The notes beneath the pieces were generated by a model. It was not told the DNA's origin, searched no databases, and worked only from the letters and a program-made list of their open reading frames with translations. This document shows positions 31,249 through 40,173 of a stretch of 64,000 nucleotides of DNA, in pieces. The DNA lies in NCBI RefSeq assembly GCF_000002985.6, contig NC_003281.10:2232001-2296000 (forward strand). Direction: 5' to 3'. Every line of letters begins with the position of its first letter. Position 1 is the stretch's first letter. A program made the translations under genes and the position numbers. The stretch is from Caenorhabditis elegans. Its lineage: Eukaryota > Nematoda > Chromadorea > Rhabditida > Rhabditidae.

Positions 31249-32054
31249 ATGACTACCATCCAAGTGGGCTTATATTTTCTTCTGGGGGCGTATATTCTTT
31301 TCAGTATATTTTTTTGTACACTGGTTCTTTTTTCAACATTTGCGGACTCTGTTTTTATTCGATACCTTAGCTCAACACACTTAGGGAAACCGGTAGTTTA
31401 CCATTTGCAGCAGGTTGTGGAATGGCTTGAAGGGTAGGCTTTTCTGTTTCAAATTTTTGTGATTAAACTTTCAAGTTTTTCAGACCCAAGTGTGGGATCT
31501 GTCTTGCTCAGTATTGGAGCACTGGAGACATGGCTCCGCGAGTTATGAACTGTGGACATACTTATTGTGGGTCATGTATCGAAATATTTGCTGAGCAGAA
31601 AGATGGAATGGTTATTTGTCCATTTTGCACAAGGACACATTTTTGTAATACCAGTAAGTCTGCAAGTGTCATTATTTTTCAAAATTTTCAAATTTTCAGT
31701 ACACCCACTGCCCTTCTTTTCCGAAAATCACCTGCTCATTATTCTATGTTCCTCGCTGATCACAGTAAACCTGTGGAAATGCCAGACTTGTCGCAAGAAA
31801 TACAGTAGCCAAGATGTTTCCAGAACTCCACGAGTCTACTCGACTTGCGGACATACATCATGTGAAGCTTGTGTCGAAAGTGATTTCACTCAGAAAAAAC
31901 GAGTGGTATGTCTAACCTGTGAAGGAAGATCTGGCGGAATAACTGGTAAAATAAAAAAAAAACGCGGTGATATTTATTGATATTAGTTGTTGCAGAAAAC
32001 TGGAAACCCCATGTGCCAATCAACTATGCAATTCGGGATTTGTTGAAGGAGTAG
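31249..32054 (+). CDS. Membrane protein with two RING motifs
   Basis: Exons are 31249-31433, 31484-31653, 31700-31945 and 31996-32054, in phase, 219 residues. Residues 7-31 form one membrane helix near the N-terminus. The first RING is complete C3HC4 with C65, C68, C85, H87, C90, C93, C107 and C110 (CGIC, MNCGHTYCGSC, CPFC). The second has C146, C149, C168, H170, C173, C176, C189 and C192 (CQTC, STCGHTSCEAC, CLTC) preceded by a weakly hydrophobic link. The C-terminus reads NYAIRDLLKE. RING proteins usually act as E3 ubiquitin ligases with an E2, so it may work beside the F-box family, but this is inference. The acceptor of exon 3 is the least certain, as a later ag is also in reach. Confidence 0.85.
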
Positions 32055-32084
32055 AATTATTTTAATTTTTTTTTGATTTTTAAG

Positions 32085-32630: not shown

Positions 32631-34032
32631 TTAACACCTTTTGATGATAAAATTAAAGCCTCCTTCACATTTGATCTCAAAAATGCTGTTTTCATATGAA
32701 TACTGGAATTCAAATAAATGATACATATCATCGTAAGGCAAGTAGTCTGGTTTAAAAACTTTTCCAATTTCATCCCGATTTCCACCTCCAAAATGAATTT
32801 CACACTTCTGGAATGTACTTCTTTTCAATAGATTCTGCAATAAATTCATCGTAAAAAATATACCCTTAAAATATAAACTCACATCTCTGATATTAATTGC
32901 ATCTTCTATTGAAAAATTTTCGAGTGAAATTTCAAATTCTTCCAGGTGGAATAGATGTTCGATTGGAGCCCCATAACGGGAAAAATCGATTTTTTTCGCG
33001 TTTTTCCATTGATCCAATAGAGTGATCCGTTCGAATTGGTTTACTCTGACTGTACTTCCCAAATAAATATTCTCCAGAAATTGAGAATCAAAATACTGCA
33101 GGATTTTGAGCACGTCATCGAATTTGAACTTTTTAAGTGATATTGCTTTCACGTGTAAAACTGTTGTGTTTCTCAAGCTCTTGATAAAATTCACAGCAGT
33201 TTTTCCATAAACTTCAAGCGTCAACCACGAGACATGTTTCAGTACAATCTCCAAATCCGTAAGTGCTTTTTCCACAAAGTTTGCTCCTATGGTAAATTTG
33301 TCTACTCTTAAAAATGCAGGTATACTATCTCCAGAGTAAACGATTTTTATATCGTCTAGTTTGATAGAAATTGAGTCTTCCCAAAATTCGCATGTGATAC
33401 TATTGAAATTTATACCGAAATTATCAACGGCAGTTCTCAAACTTTGACAAACTTTACGAAAGATTAGTCTGTAAATAAGTATTTCAAATTTTTTTTGCAA
33501 AGCCAATACATTCAAATCAGGGGTGGGCGGCAATTGCCACAATTTGTCAGTTTGCCGGTTTGCCAATTTTCCATAGGATGCGTACAATTTTTCAGATTGG
33601 CATTGATATTTTGAAATTTCGAAAAAAAAAAGGTTGAAAACCACAATTTGCCAATAATGTTTGGCAATTTGCCGATAATTTTCAATCCCGGCAATTTGCC
33701 GACTTGCCGCAAACCCTAATTCCGGCGAGTTGCCGATTTGCCAGAATATTTCAATTCCGGCAATTTGTCGATTTGCCGATTTTCCGTAAATTTTTAATTC
33801 CGACAATTTGCCGATTTGCCAGAAATTTTTAATTCCGGCTGTTTGCCGGTTTGCCAATTTCCCGGAAATTTCAATACCGGCAATTTGCCATTTTGCCGGA
33901 AAAAATCGTTGCCGCCTAACCCCTGATTTGAATGCATAATTTAAAAAAAAGCTCAATGGGCTCAAACTTCTCCAAAACTAGATTAGCGACATCCAAAGGG
34001 AGATGGAGCAAATCTCGATTGAAACAAGACAT
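32631..34032 (-). pseudogene. fbxa-type F-box/FTH gene with a lost first splice donor
   Basis: Exon 3 is 32631-32834, exon 2 is 32883-33468, and the first exon begins at the ATG ending at 34032. Exon 1 reads LLHLPLDVANLVLEKFEP, then IEL, where all relatives have gtgagt or gtaag. Here the sequence is 'attgagcttttttttaaa' and no GT follows for many bases, so the donor is gone. Exon 2 (IFRKVCQSLRTAVDNFGI, ILQYFDSQFLENIYL, ITLLDQWKNAK, IEHLFHLEEFEI) and exon 3 (NLLKRSTFQKC) are open. A GCCGATTTGCCG element (33517-33930) fills intron 1 next to the missing donor. In one frame the intron, exon 2 and intron 2 read through without a stop from about 33965. It is either a pseudogene or spliced from an unseen donor. 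Confidence 0.75.
33517..33930. repeat. GCCGATTTGCCG-rich repeat, copy 2
   Basis: About eight units with 'ggcaatttgccgatttgcc' spaced by 'gaaatttcaattcc' fill intron 1 of the F-box gene. The outer ends are 'gggtgggcggcaa' at left and 'ggcggcaacga...' inverted at right, which makes the whole an imperfect palindrome. Confidence 0.85.
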
Positions 34033-34692
34033 AGTTGAAATTTTATCTGAAATTATTAAATTTATTATCGGGAAAATAAATATTGCGAAGAAAATAAAAT
34101 AAAATGTATTGAATCAATATTAATTTAAGAAGTAGCAAGGCGTTATCAGTTCTGCTCTTAAATATACATTCTTATCAATTTTTTCGAGTTAACAAAAGAC
34201 GTCAATGTGATAAAATATTCAAAGAAGAACAACAAACCCGCGGGTAGTTGTGCACATTTTTTCTTTTAATTTTTCAAGTTTTTTGTGTGAAAATATTTTA
34301 TTTGTTTTTATACGTTCACGTTTTTGTAATTACTAGTAATTATAATGATAGTAAGAAGTCAAATTTGGCCAAAAAATCGATAATCATGTTAAAATTAATA
34401 AAAACTAATCAGGATGGAAATTCAAACATAATTCGGTCGTTGGAAACATTTAAAAATCATAAAAAAAATTTTAATTTTTTTCAGAATTTATGAAAATTTT
34501 TGTAAATTTTTTATCAGCGATTTTTTCTGAAAATGTTATTTTAATCTTGAACAATCTGTCTTTTACATATTTTTAAGTTTTTTTCGAGAAAAATAAAACT
34601 TTTAAGACTTTGAGCTCTCAATTCTCAATTCTTTCAAATTTTTGAACTCCAGATTTTCTGCAAAATTCTAAATTTTCTGGACAGTTTCAAAA
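34033..34692. promoter_or_regulatory. Divergent region between two F-box genes
   Basis: It carries TTTAAGAAGTAGCAAGG at 34123-34139, about 90 bases upstream of the gene starting at 34032, and matches blocks upstream of two other F-box genes in the window. The rest is AT-rich. No gene is supported. Confidence 0.4.
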
Positions 34693-36300
34693 ATGGTTGG
34701 TCAATTTGATTTCATTCCATCCAAGTGGCTGTCTTGTTTATCAAAAAGTCGTCGGAACACCCCAAAGTTGCTCGCAATGCCTCTGGATATTGTGAACCAA
34801 GTTTTTGAAAAGCTGGAGCCTGTGGATTTGTGAGTTTTACTTATTCTAAATTTATTTTTTATGAATGCTTTCCAGACTGGTCTTGCGTAAAGTTTGCCAA
34901 TGTTTGCGAGCCGCCGTCGATAAATTTAGAATTCATTTGGATGAAATCAGAATAATTTGCAATGGAAACAAAGTTTTCATAAAACTAAACGAAAGTTGCA
35001 TTGAATACACTAAAACAACAACTGGTGGTGCAAAAGTGTCTTTCAATAAAAAAATAAAGATACTTGAAAAAGGATCCTACATGGACATTGCCGCCAATGA
35101 TTTGGGATTATTATTGAAGCATGTTTCAAGATTATATTTTGCAAATTACGTCCCAGATATAAAAATCTTCATCACATCATTTATAAACGTCTTGAAAGCT
35201 AAGAAATGTATTCACGTGAGAAGTATCGAACTTGGCGGCTTACTTTCCCGTGATGTTCAGTCTATTCTTCGGTACCTAGATGCTCAGAAATTGGATGATA
35301 TTATACTATGGAGAATTAAAGGTATTTTTCGCTTCAAATGGCAGGAAATAGACCCTAATGACGGAATATGACTGTATAAAATTTTAAAAAAAAAATGCTC
35401 TAAATCCTCTCAATTTTCCAAAAAAAAACGGTCGAATTAAATTGAACTCCCGCGCAAACGCGTGACGTCATTTTTTTTTTGAAGAACTCTGTATTTTTTA
35501 ATCAAATTTTCAAACACCTTATCCGATAAAGTTTATGAAAACTATAGTACTAATTGTTCGATTTTTAGGCCAATTTTCTATATTTTATCTAGCTTTATTT
35601 ACAGAAAAGCGAGCGTCTGAAAAATTGAAAAAAAAAGTGTTTTAAATCAAATATAGAAGAAATTGAGCCAGAAAACGCAAAAATATCAAAAGTGACGTCC
35701 CTCATGATTTTTGAAAAATTTCCTGAAAGTTTAACCAGTTATGGTGCATTAGATCAGTTTTGGTACATCTAACCAGTTATGGTGCATCTAAAAAAATTTT
35801 GAAGCCATATTCGGAATTAGGGTATATGTTCTGTCATTTAAAACAAAAAAAATTAAATCTACCCCACCTTTAAAGAATTTAATCAATTGGAACGGCTTGA
35901 TTGCTTGGATCAGTGGAGAAGTGCAAAAACATTTCAAAGTTGGCATCTTCCGCTGAAAGAGGCGGAAATAAAAATTGAACAACTTTTTCATTTCAATAAA
36001 TTCAAAATTAAATTGGAAAATTTCTCAATAGAATATGCAGTTAAAATTAGAGATGTGAGTTTTACTTGTTTTTATATTTTATTCGTATTTTGATTTCAGG
36101 ATCTTTTGAGAAGACGTTCATTTCAGTACTGCTGCATATTATTTGATACAATAAATTCAATAACGCTTTTCGAATTGAAAAAAGTGTTCCAACCGGATGT
36201 TTCTGGTCGAGATGAACATCAATTTGAATATTCAAACCGTAACAATACGTTTCACATTTTCATTTTAAATAGTCATTTTATGTGTTCTATTTCCGAATAA
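34693..36300 (+). pseudogene. fbxa-type F-box/FTH gene split by a TTAA element
   Basis: Exon 1 is 34693-34829 (LLAMPLDIVNQVFEKLEPVD), with a longer N-terminus than most. Exon 2 begins at 34876 (LVLRKVCQCLRAAVDKFRI) and is interrupted at 35319, between ILWRIK and EFNQLERLDCLDQWR, by a 550-base element flanked by TTAA. It resumes at 35874 and ends at 36054. Exon 3 is 36100-36300 (DLLRRRSFQYC). Removing the element with one TTAA gives 625 bases for exon 2, exactly in phase with both neighbours, for 320 codons. With the insertion, a stop comes at 35369-35371, leaving about 190 residues with the F-box and a partial FTH. No second lesion was seen, so the insertion is likely recent. Confidence 0.9.
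35316..35873. mobile_element. TTAA-flanked element inside an F-box exon
   Basis: TTAA at 35316-35319 and 35870-35873 is the target duplication. The element begins AGGTATTTTTCGCTTC and ends CTACCCCACCT, so the terminal AGGT/ACCT pair matches the other TTAA palindromes. Arms include 'ggaaatagaccctaatgacg' and, inverted near the right end, a form of 'cggaattagggtatatg'. There is no protein coding. Related sequence lies at 36825-37310 and 38245-38670. Confidence 0.9.
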
Positions 36301-37312
36301 AAATCTGGAATAGATTTTGAACTGTAAAACATGAAACATTGTTTGACACATATTTTCAGCGGGAAATTTGGAATCCCCCGACTTCTGGGGCTGAAAACTT
36401 ATTTTTCTGAAACTACCGTAACCCTACAGTATTCCTACCGTACCACTATTGTACCACTACAGTACCCCGACTATATCCCTACACTAACCCCAACTCACTA
36501 TCCCCACTGAAGCCAAAACTTCACAGACTACAAAGACTACATTGACTACAAACTATGGACACACAGAATAAGCGCTTTATATATAGTAAATGATATAGTA
36601 TTGTCAAACTTTTGACGTGTTTAGCAAATTCTGCAAAATCTGCAAATTTCCTGCACACCTATGCTTTAAATGGGTTCGTCTGACGACAACTAATGTAACT
36701 TCAGAACCGCATCAGTTACAAAAAAGTCAAATGCATTTATAATATCAAAACTCAAAATAAAGTGCAATAAGTACAGAAAAATGTAAAAGTAACAAATGTA
36801 ACAAGCTATTCTTATTTCGAAGGTGGAGCAGAGTCAAGTCAAAACAATTTCGCTTCTAAATGACTAAAATATATACCCTAGCAACCGAATATAACTGTGA
36901 AAAAAGTTTAAAAATTTTTTTCACAATTTTATGATTGAGTTTGAGAGTTCCCGCGCAAATTAGTGACGTCACTTTTTCTTGATTTTTCTTCTATATCTGA
37001 TTATAAACACCGCTTGTCAATTTTTTAAACCATTTTTCGAAAAAAAAATTAGATTGTCGATTTTTTGGCCAATTTTGAAATTTCCACCTATTTCTTTCGG
37101 GTTACCAAGTTCTCTTCCCCGAAAAAATTGAAAGTTGAAAAATAGTGTTGTAAATCAAATATGGGAGAAAAAACCGGTAATTATAGCCGGAAAAATGGCA
37201 AAAATGACGTTTCTCTGATTTTTGAAAATTTTTTAAAAAATCATAAAAAAATTTAGAAAATTTTTAAATCTTATTTACACTCATAATAGGTCATTAGGGT
37301 TTAGTTTCTTTT
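36301..37312. other. Intergenic with a decayed palindrome
   Basis: At 36410-36490 there is a short run of TACCGTACC/TACAGTACCCC-type units. From about 36825 to 37310 lies a decayed relative of the element at 35316-35873, with 'gctaaatatatacccta' and 'ggtcattagggttta' arms and TGACGTCA-like centres. No gene is supported. Confidence 0.55.
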
Positions 37313-40173
37313 TTAAAAAAATTCATACAATTTTTCTACAAAAAATTCAGAACATCTGGAATCAACTTCCGCGTATTGAACTACGAATTTGGTGTTATCA
37401 TTTGAATATTTCAATTTGAACTCGTTTCCGCCAGTATAGTCCGGTTTAAATACTTTTGCAATTTCGATTGGATTCAATTTGAGTTTTTTAAAATATATCC
37501 GGCATCTTTGAAATTCACTTTTTCTCATGAGATTCTGCAAAAATATTATTAAATTAAAAACACTACAATTCGTGTATACATACAACTTACATCTCGAATT
37601 TCAACTGCAGTTTCTGTGGAAAAGTTGAACATTTTGTAGATAGTGAAGCATTGAAAATGAGAAAAATGCAAAATAAATTTACTGTCAAGTCTGGAATACC
37701 AAATTTCAAAGTTTTTCGCACATTTCCATTGATATAGAAGAGTTATTTGTTCAAACTGATCCAATTGAACAGCTCCATTCAATATAATTGTTTCCATCTT
37801 TTGAGAATCAAAATTTGATAAAAGATATGTGATATCATCGATTGAGAATTTGTAAAATGCTAACTCTTTCACATGAAAACATTCTTCTGGTTTCAAAAAA
37901 TCAATAAAAGATTTGATTATTGTCTTATTTTCACCACTTGTCCAATTACATATGATTAATTTTGATACTTTCTTCAATACTATTTTCATATCCTTGAATG
38001 CTGTTTCAGCACCTTTAATTTGCTTGTTTTGATCTTTATAAACGAGAGTAGTTGTACGACTCTTCTCTGCATAAGTATAACTAATTTTAAATCCGTCCAA
38101 AATCAAAGTTAAGCTATCATCATACAAGTATGTAGTGATTGTTTCAAAAGGAACTCCAAATTGATCAACAGCGTTTTTTAGACCTCGGCACACTTTCCGA
38201 CATCTTAGTCTGTAAATAATTCATGTTAATTGTTGAAAAAGTTTGCTTTAAATGACAGAAAATAGACCCTAATGTCCGATTATGACTGTAAAAAATTTTT
38301 GAAAAAATTCCTAAATTTTGAATATTTTTTTTTAATTTCAAAAATCAAAGAAACGGCCGAATCAAATTTGAATTACACACCGTTTCTCTAATTTTTCACA
38401 CGTTTTTCTGTAAATATAACTTGATAACTCCAAAGCAAGTTGTGTAAAAATCGACAAAGTTTTTGAAAAAATGACGAACGGTGTTTTAAATCAAAATTTG
38501 AGCCAGAAAACGCAAACAAAAAAAAAATCAAAAATGCCGTTACTCATTTGCGCGGGAATTCAAATTTCATTTGGCGGCCGTTTCTTTGAATTGTGAAAAT
38601 TTTTAAAAACCAATACAAATTTAGAAAACTGTTTAAAATTTTTTTCACACTTTTTTTTGACTGGACTTTACCTTTAAAACATGACTATGGTACAAAAATT
38701 ACCAAATTTCATAGAAACATTTATTTTCAAAATTACAAAATTTTTAATGATTTTATTGAAAAATTTAATAGTCAGTTTTTGTCGAAATTTTAATAGGATT
38801 TACCGCTTAAATTTTTAAAAATATTTTTATTCATTCACTTTACTTTTTCACCTTATTTTCAAAGTTTTAGTGTAATTTTACAGGAAAATTTTTAACAATT
38901 TCAGTTTTCATTTTACCGTCAAAAGCATCTCCATTTTTGTTTAGTTTTTCGTAGTTTTTATACAAATTTTAATGATAAAAAGTTGCGATAATGCAATTTT
39001 TTAATTTTTTAAAAAGTTTACTAGACCAAACATTTAAGCTGGAAATTTTGAAAAAAAATCACGATATATGCAATTTGTTTTTAATTCAAAAAAAAAAAAC
39101 GAAGAAAATTAATTTTACAGATTTACGCTTGTTCAGCTGCTTTTTTTTAAATAACAATTGCATTTATCTTGATTTTTTTAAAGGTGGAGTAGCGTCAGTG
39201 GGGAAATTGCTTTAAAACATGCCTATGGGGTCACAATGACCGAATATCATAATAAAAAAATTCAAAAAAATTTTCTAAATTTTATATGATTTTTTGAAAA
39301 TTGAAAAAATCTCAGTTTTTGCCTAATTCCTATTTGAATTTCCGCCAATTGGATTATCGATGGAGCGCACTTGCACGTTTTTAAATTTATTTATTTTATT
39401 CCACCGATTTTTAATGTTTTCGGTGTATTTTTGCTTGGATTTTAAAGAAAAAGTCAAAATAAATGCAAATTTTCGATTAAAAAACACGATTACAGGCGTA
39501 AAAATGAAAAAGTAACGCTTTTAAACGATCTCGAACCTGAATTAATTAATTTCACTGACTTACGCCTGTACGCTTGCTTTTTAATCGAAAATTTGCATTT
39601 ATTTTTACTTTTTCTTTAAAATCCAAGCAAAAATACACCGAAAACATTAAAAATCGGTGGAAAATAACAAACAATAAAATAAATAAATAAATTTAAAAAC
39701 GTGCAAGTGCGCTCCATCGATAATCCAATTGGCGGAAATTCAAATAGGAATTAGGCAAAAACTGAGATTTTTTCAATTTTCAAAAAATCATATAAAATTT
39801 AGAAAATTTTTTTGAATTTTTTTATCATGATATTTGGTCATTGTGGTACCATAGGCATGTTTTAAAGCAATTTCCCCACTGACGCTACTCCACCTTTAAT
39901 GAAAAAATATATAAAAAAAATCAAAAAATAGTTATAAATTTTTTCTGAATTTTTTAACTTTGATATTTGGCCATTGTAGTATTTACCATAGGCTTTGAGA
40001 CATTAAAAAAAATCTTACAAATCAAATGTCTCCAATTTCTCCAAAATTTGGTTAGCGACATCCAGGGGCAAATCGATCAAAGATGCTGATTTCAGATTCT
40101 GAGGGGATGTGTGTTGGAAAATTGATAATTTTGAAAACCAGACAGGTACGATATTCAAGAAATTGTGACACAT
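37313..40173 (-). CDS. fbxa-type F-box/FTH protein with a long repeat-filled intron 1
   Basis: Exons are 40019-40173, 37591-38209 and 37313-37534, in phase, 331 residues. Exon 1 has an extended start (MCHNFLNIVPVWFSKLSIF) and then the F-box half SLIDLPLDVANQILEKLE. Exon 2 opens LRCRKVCRGLKNAVDQFGV and holds the FTH landmarks AFKDMKIVLKKVSKL, LLSNFDSQKMETIIL, ITLLYQWKCAK and IRD. Exon 3 opens NLMRKSEFQRC. The F-box and FTH are complete and the frame is open. Intron 1 is 1.8 kb and contains two TTAA-class elements. The start with CHNFL is similar in style to the gene at 42028 (long basic N-terminus). Confidence 0.88.
38245..38672. mobile_element. TTAA-class element, decayed
   Basis: 'gacagaaaatagaccctaat' at the left matches the left arm of the element at 35316-35873, and the right end is ACCTTTAA at about 38665-38672. 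The right arm is diverged. It is within intron 1 of the F-box gene. Confidence 0.6.
39178..39899. mobile_element. TTAA palindrome, copy 3
   Basis: It begins TTAAAGGTGGAGTAGCGTC and ends GACGCTACTCCACCTTTAA, 722 bases. Long arms with 'gaacctgaattaattaattt' near the centre. It is nearly identical to the copy at 45826-46556, so both are recent. Within F-box intron 1. Confidence 0.9.

Follow-up and report, generated by a model that had tools for sequence, protein, structure and literature searches.

The second exon of an F-box gene of Caenorhabditis elegans is split by a TTAA element whose removal would restore the reading frame exactly. Is this a very recent and perhaps still mobile insertion, as the initial annotation proposed, or can a gene of this kind keep working with the element in place? 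The window analysed is a stretch of 64,000 nucleotides (G000:C3:2232001-2296000), and genome-wide searches covered 100,286,401 bases in 7 contigs. The gene lies on the + strand at 34693-36300 and has three exons, the second of which is interrupted at 35316-35873, just where the initial annotation had placed the element. Exon 1 (34693-34829) starts with the ATG at 34693, and its N-terminus resembles that of the paralog L039. As predicted from the sequence, it is followed by intron 1 (34830-34875, GTGAGTTTT...TTTCCAG) and by exon 2, which, if the element is spliced out, consists of a 5' portion (34876-35321, ending TGG AGA ATT AAA G) and a 3' portion (35876-36054). The last intron (36055-36099, GTGAGTTTT...TTTCAG) leads to exon 3 (36100-36300), whose TAA stop at 36298-36300 is overlapped by AATAAA at 36296-36301.

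Without the insert, exon 2 measures 625 bp, exons 1 and 2 together make 762 bp or 254 codons, and the reading frame is open across exon 3 as far as the TAA. The resulting CDS of 963 nt, including the stop, encodes a product of 320 aa with Pfam matches to an N-terminal F-box (1.1e-8) and to the FTH domain (1.1e-38), the two domains of an F-box/FTH gene. Once the element and one TTAA are removed, the sequence reads TGG AGA ATT AAA GAA TTT, and the codons join as W-R-I-K-E-F-N-Q, as had been claimed; the further claim that the gene carries no other lesion agrees with what we see in its ~960 coding bases. In the unspliced reading a stop appears 16 codons past W-R-I-K, and the insert carries many stops. 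Elsewhere in the window, by eye, a likely RING-finger gene occupies 31250-32055 of the + strand, and a tract of GGCAATTTGCCG-like units at 33520-33900 probably belongs to an intron of an F-box gene on the minus strand.

The element itself spans 35320-35869 on the + strand, 550 bp with inverted ends AGGT...ACCT, and is decayed. It lies between TTAA target-site copies at 35316-35319 and 35870-35873, the right one followed by an exonic AG at 35874-35875; with one TTAA counted, the insert is 554 bp (554 mod 3 = 2). Its termini are TTAAAGGT, read inwards from both sides. At least 139 matching pieces of the repeat family were found genome-wide, the own copy counted (E<=0.001), and the family consensus end is TTAA-AGGT, derived from 23 arms that were selected with patterns close to this end. 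The motif TTAAAGGTGGAGTAGAGTC has 21 exact sites in the genome, and 151 when one mismatch is allowed. Being short and non-coding, with inverted ends and many copies, the element is a MITE, and its description as a non-autonomous TTAA element inside a coding exon is confirmed. With regard to the piggyBac superfamily, the TTAA target duplication is present and relatives end in TTAAAGGT and ACCTTTAA. PiggyBac elements have CCC ends (CCC/GGG adjoining TTAA), and no such terminal triplets occur here, where the ends are AGGT...ACCT. The right arm contains, at 35732-35787, three copies of TAACCAGTTATGGTGCAT spaced 19 bp apart (two identical, one 72%) that are absent from the family arm consensus. Neither an RNA family nor a special fold found support: an Rfam search of 34600-36800 gave no match, and the folding z-score was -1.53, with 7 of 100 shuffles equally stable, though the predicted fold pairs both ends of the element. 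Elsewhere in the window, an element at 39178-39899 has both TTAAAGGTGGAGTAGCG...CTACTCCACCTTTAA type ends intact, and decayed relatives lie at ~36840-37320 and 38235-38680.

Comparison with paralogs gives the direction of the change. The protein search of the same genome scored 150 of 224 candidates, two of them this gene, and its counts are therefore lower bounds. Among the other FTH matches listed, 138 of 148 span the insertion position in one piece, which indicates that the interruption is derived and leads us to reject a shared intron of ancient origin here. Nine of the ten exceptions fall in six loci (L039-L044) and the remaining one is at C6:1892820. Near the site, the breaks in the six loci are lesions of other kinds (frameshifts or indels, deletions, one truncation and one in-frame insert), and the displayed stretches showed no TTAA element. 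Three of these FTH paralogs, L041, L042 and L044, carry ordinary frame lesions in this exon and have the look of dead copies. The in-frame insert of L039 (G000:C3:1340000-1342500, minus strand) is a stretch of 48 nt, GTGAGTTT...TTTTCCATTAG, which resembles a short worm intron and occupies nearly the same codon position; by its sequence it is a candidate for a second young intron.

The age of the element was judged from its relatives and from changes private to this copy. Among its long matches in the genome, the best reaches 77% over 152 query bases, shorter pieces go up to 97% over 31 bases, and against eight relatives with intact ends the whole copy reaches at best 66% over 282 bases. Among these eight, the best pairwise identity over at least 200 bases is 76 to 91% for seven and absent for one, two pairs of places on C5 that lie 108,279 bases apart not having been used as pairs. 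The repeat copies there (G000:C5 ~2400382-2409000 and 2508661-2517100) have identical scores, and mariner-type matches nearby on C5 are also ~108 kb apart, which suggests a large duplicated segment. The two arms of the element differ from the arm consensus in 23 and 29% of the columns compared, where 21 other arms differ in 2 to 24%, and private bases, found in under 10% of hits, make up 15 of 151 columns in the left arm and 6 of 85 in the right. The left end also lacks ~15 bases, directly 3' of AGGT, that are present in its own right end and in the family; the deletion site is at 35323-35324. A genome-wide search with the left-end pattern, allowing up to 3 mismatches, returned one match, the copy itself, so the deletion most simply postdates the insertion. 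Dating by private changes assumes that they arose in place, and the estimate is soft, given that cut-and-paste transposition carries older mutations along. An old copy may thus have been moved by cut and paste before the last deletion.

On this evidence, a very recent or currently mobile insertion is unlikely. The private bases, the private deletion and the ceiling of 91% among relatives do not support the very recent and possibly polymorphic insertion that the initial annotation inferred. Its second proposal was excision in a fraction of cells. Ongoing somatic or germline excision without a footprint would repair the gene in some cells, and both TTAA copies are indeed intact and removal would be exact. 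We consider it highly improbable, because the left end is damaged, no pair among the eight relatives compared exceeds 91%, and the piggyBac transposase profile PF13843 (DDE_Tnp_1_7) gave no match in the genome, though its own controls were also silent; the mariner profile PF01359, used as a control family, gave 150 matches in the same genome.

The open reading frame puts a second limit on the history of the locus. A gene that had been dead for 9% of neutral divergence should have gathered 3.9 to 4.5 stops in its ~960 coding bases, where none is seen. The probability of no stop at this divergence is 0.01-0.02, and that of a lesion-free sequence, at an assumed 0.1 indel per substitution, is 2e-6 to 4e-6. 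The intact CDS therefore means either that the insertion is young or that the gene has worked with the element in place. The first option corresponds to a fairly recent knockout, in which cut-and-paste transposition brought a diverged MITE into a functional gene, useful splicing does not occur and the frame is open for lack of time. This option comes near to the view of the initial annotation, and we regard it as somewhat unlikely. A young null allele would also have an intact CDS (P 0.23-0.25 at 1% neutral divergence, with the same assumed indel rate), and since cut and paste leaves no source copy, the insertion cannot be dated by the lack of a close relative. Against this stand the private deletion within the left inverted repeat, the best pairwise identity of 91% among the eight relatives, and the contrast between PF13843, without matches but with silent controls, and PF01359. 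If the gene instead worked with the element in place, the route visible in the sequence would be splicing.

The boundaries of the element do provide a possible intron. The stretch 35322-35875 (+ strand, 554 nt) starts TTAAAG|GTATTT and ends CCTTTAAAG|, and would be a GT-AG intron with the donor AAAG|GTATTTTT and the acceptor CCTTTAAAG|AATT. The predicted spliced junction at 35321/35876 reads ...ATTAAAG/AATTTAAT, and when the strings were compared by script the spliced exon was letter-for-letter identical to that of the empty site. Because splicing and excision would leave one and the same exon, the restored frame does not speak for a recent or mobile insertion, and the argument that the initial annotation drew from it falls. 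That annotation had itself named splicing of the element as an intron among the outcomes that would contradict it, and a possible junction of exact fit is present in the sequence. Two features expected of an introner-derived intron are found here: element boundaries that are possible intron boundaries with the mRNA unchanged, and similar sequences elsewhere in the genome, namely the matching pieces counted above.

The two halves of the junction have different origins. The AG 5' of the donor comes from the element and the acceptor AG from the exon, such that the donor half (AG|GT) is a property of the family consensus end, and the acceptor half requires an AG after the TTAA of the exon. Only one of the five TTAA sites in the CDS is followed by AG, and it is the one that was hit, a coincidence that counts for the intron reading and against the recent knockout; in exon 2 of 28 paralogs the figure is 5 of 89. 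However, AG adjoins TTAA at 7 of 29 element ends that were not chosen for AG, so that it is not rare next to existing copies, and this counts against the intron reading.

Splice-site strength also speaks against it. Sites were scored on a set from FTH genes with 64 donors, from two intron positions, and 34 acceptors, which all precede exon 3, that of this gene included, and are thus a related and narrow yardstick. The donor GTATTT has a local score of -1.1 against a minimum of 2.0 among the 64 donors, and the acceptor TTTAAAG scores 3.6 against a minimum of 4.7 among the 34 related acceptors, where position -3 is C in 32 cases, T in one and G in one, with no A and hence no AAG. The donor has AG at -2,-1 and lacks RAG at +3 to +5. 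Both boundary sites are below every site of the training set, which argues against the intron reading and in favour of a recent knockout. The worm acceptor consensus is UUUUCAGR, and TTTTcag accounts for ~26% of some 40,000 introns, according to PMC2762039; according to a paper on U6 modification, weak acceptors can be supported where U5 and U6 contact the donor strongly (PMC11347140). Efficient splicing of 35322-35875 is doubtful on these scores, and partial splicing is plausible.

In all, 31 GT-AG pairs keep the frame (donors at 35151-35600, acceptors no further than 36054). The boundary pair comes third among them, and it alone among the first three retains all 320 residues. The best summed score belongs to donor 35322 with acceptor 36040, which loses 55 residues. 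The element could accordingly be removed through this or other pairs of sites, giving a shortened F-box protein or several products. We find this quite improbable: FTH-region sequence common to paralogs would be lost, and the ranking that favours it is based on the 64 donors and the 34 related acceptors. As for the donor, the private deletion raised its score from -8.7 (GTGGAG in the family) to -1.1 (GTATTT). In simulation, 27 of 120 deletions matched that gain, which is thus not rare.

Taken together, these observations make it somewhat probable, in our judgement, that an old MITE insertion in exon 2 of this F-box/FTH gene has been tolerated because it is spliced out as an intron. An old copy of a palindromic TTAA MITE would have inserted in exon 2 at a TTAA that by chance preceded AG. 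With the consensus end AGGT after TTAA, the insertion would have brought its own AG|GT donor, and the exonic AG just 3' of the duplicated TTAA would act as acceptor. If the spliceosome uses these boundary sites, splicing of 35322-35875 would take out the element and restore the original exon exactly, and the gene, presumably still functional, would have been kept open while the element decayed in place. The deletion in the left inverted repeat would then have changed the donor from GTGGAG to GTATTT, an improvement by the local score, and the same deletion would have destroyed the symmetry of the ends, leaving a copy that may now be an intron and not a mobile unit.

Splicing of transposons from worm transcripts has a precedent: Rushforth and Anderson (1996) reportedly described Tc1 insertions that are spliced from mutant C. 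elegans pre-mRNAs. As proposed here, the worm spliceosome takes a transposon out of an exon in both cases. Tc1, however, is an active TA element that is often imprecisely spliced, whereas the present one is an old TTAA element with an exact junction. A likeness is also found in introners, which are non-autonomous, carry target-site duplications and terminal inverted repeats and insert in exons, with splice sites supplied by the element, the duplication or the neighbouring exon (PMC9860276). Their insertion leaves mRNA length mostly unchanged, and their families form introns in several genes, with 5 to more than 2,000 copies per genome (PMC9860276). The mechanism proposed here is the same, with target-site duplication, inverted ends, exon insertion and unchanged mRNA. 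The words Caenorhabditis and nematode are absent from the main text of that source.

Unlike introners, whose families form introns in several genes, the present family offers, in the sample surveyed, a single candidate intron with weak predicted sites. Our survey comprised 70 TTAAAGGT...ACCTTTAA pairs in the loci examined, of which 30 are followed by AG (these were partly chosen for AG); copies without exact ends were dropped, and the survey covered all 44 listed exact CTACTCCACCTTTAAAG ends and a minority of the remaining ends among the 127 counted. Only in this copy is a gene frame across the junction found together with a flanking AG (1 of 70). It also has the longest open frame across the junction, 73 codons on the shorter side, followed by L082 with 59, where AT follows the TTAA. 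L082, L108 and L095 were rejected as further coding insertions, as no convincing gene frame could be seen by eye. The repeat family did not behave as an introner in this sample of 70 pairs.

For the palindromic TTAA repeats of C. elegans, the label PALTTAA2/PiggyBac is in use (PMC1431705). The element shares with them the TTAA target, the inverted or palindromic structure and the many copies, and differs in that this copy is decayed and asymmetric; its assignment to PALTTAA2 is a lead. With respect to intron gain, a survey of ten Caenorhabditis species lists 168 confirmed gained introns, 13 of them in C. elegans, all 168 with gt-ag signals and polypyrimidine tracts, and reports a source sequence for none (PMC9169325). 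An older study cited there saw a resemblance to other introns in 28 of 122 reported gains, which was later disputed. The candidate described here is like these in its derived position in C. elegans, and it differs in that a source family is visible and the sites are weak. In a limited literature collection, we found nothing that joins TTAA MITEs, C. elegans introns and splice sites.

A wider reading, which we advance tentatively and think rather unlikely to hold, is that Caenorhabditis harbours latent introners in its palindromic TTAA elements: with AGGT as donor in either orientation, any insertion at an exonic TTAA-AG would make an intron and restore the mRNA exactly, and the present gene would exemplify intron gain in C. 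elegans with a visible source family, in which an end deletion improved the donor. If the element is not spliced, the locus is an ordinary disrupted gene. If it is spliced, an intron would have been gained here from a family that the genome still contains, with paralogs that display the intronless state.
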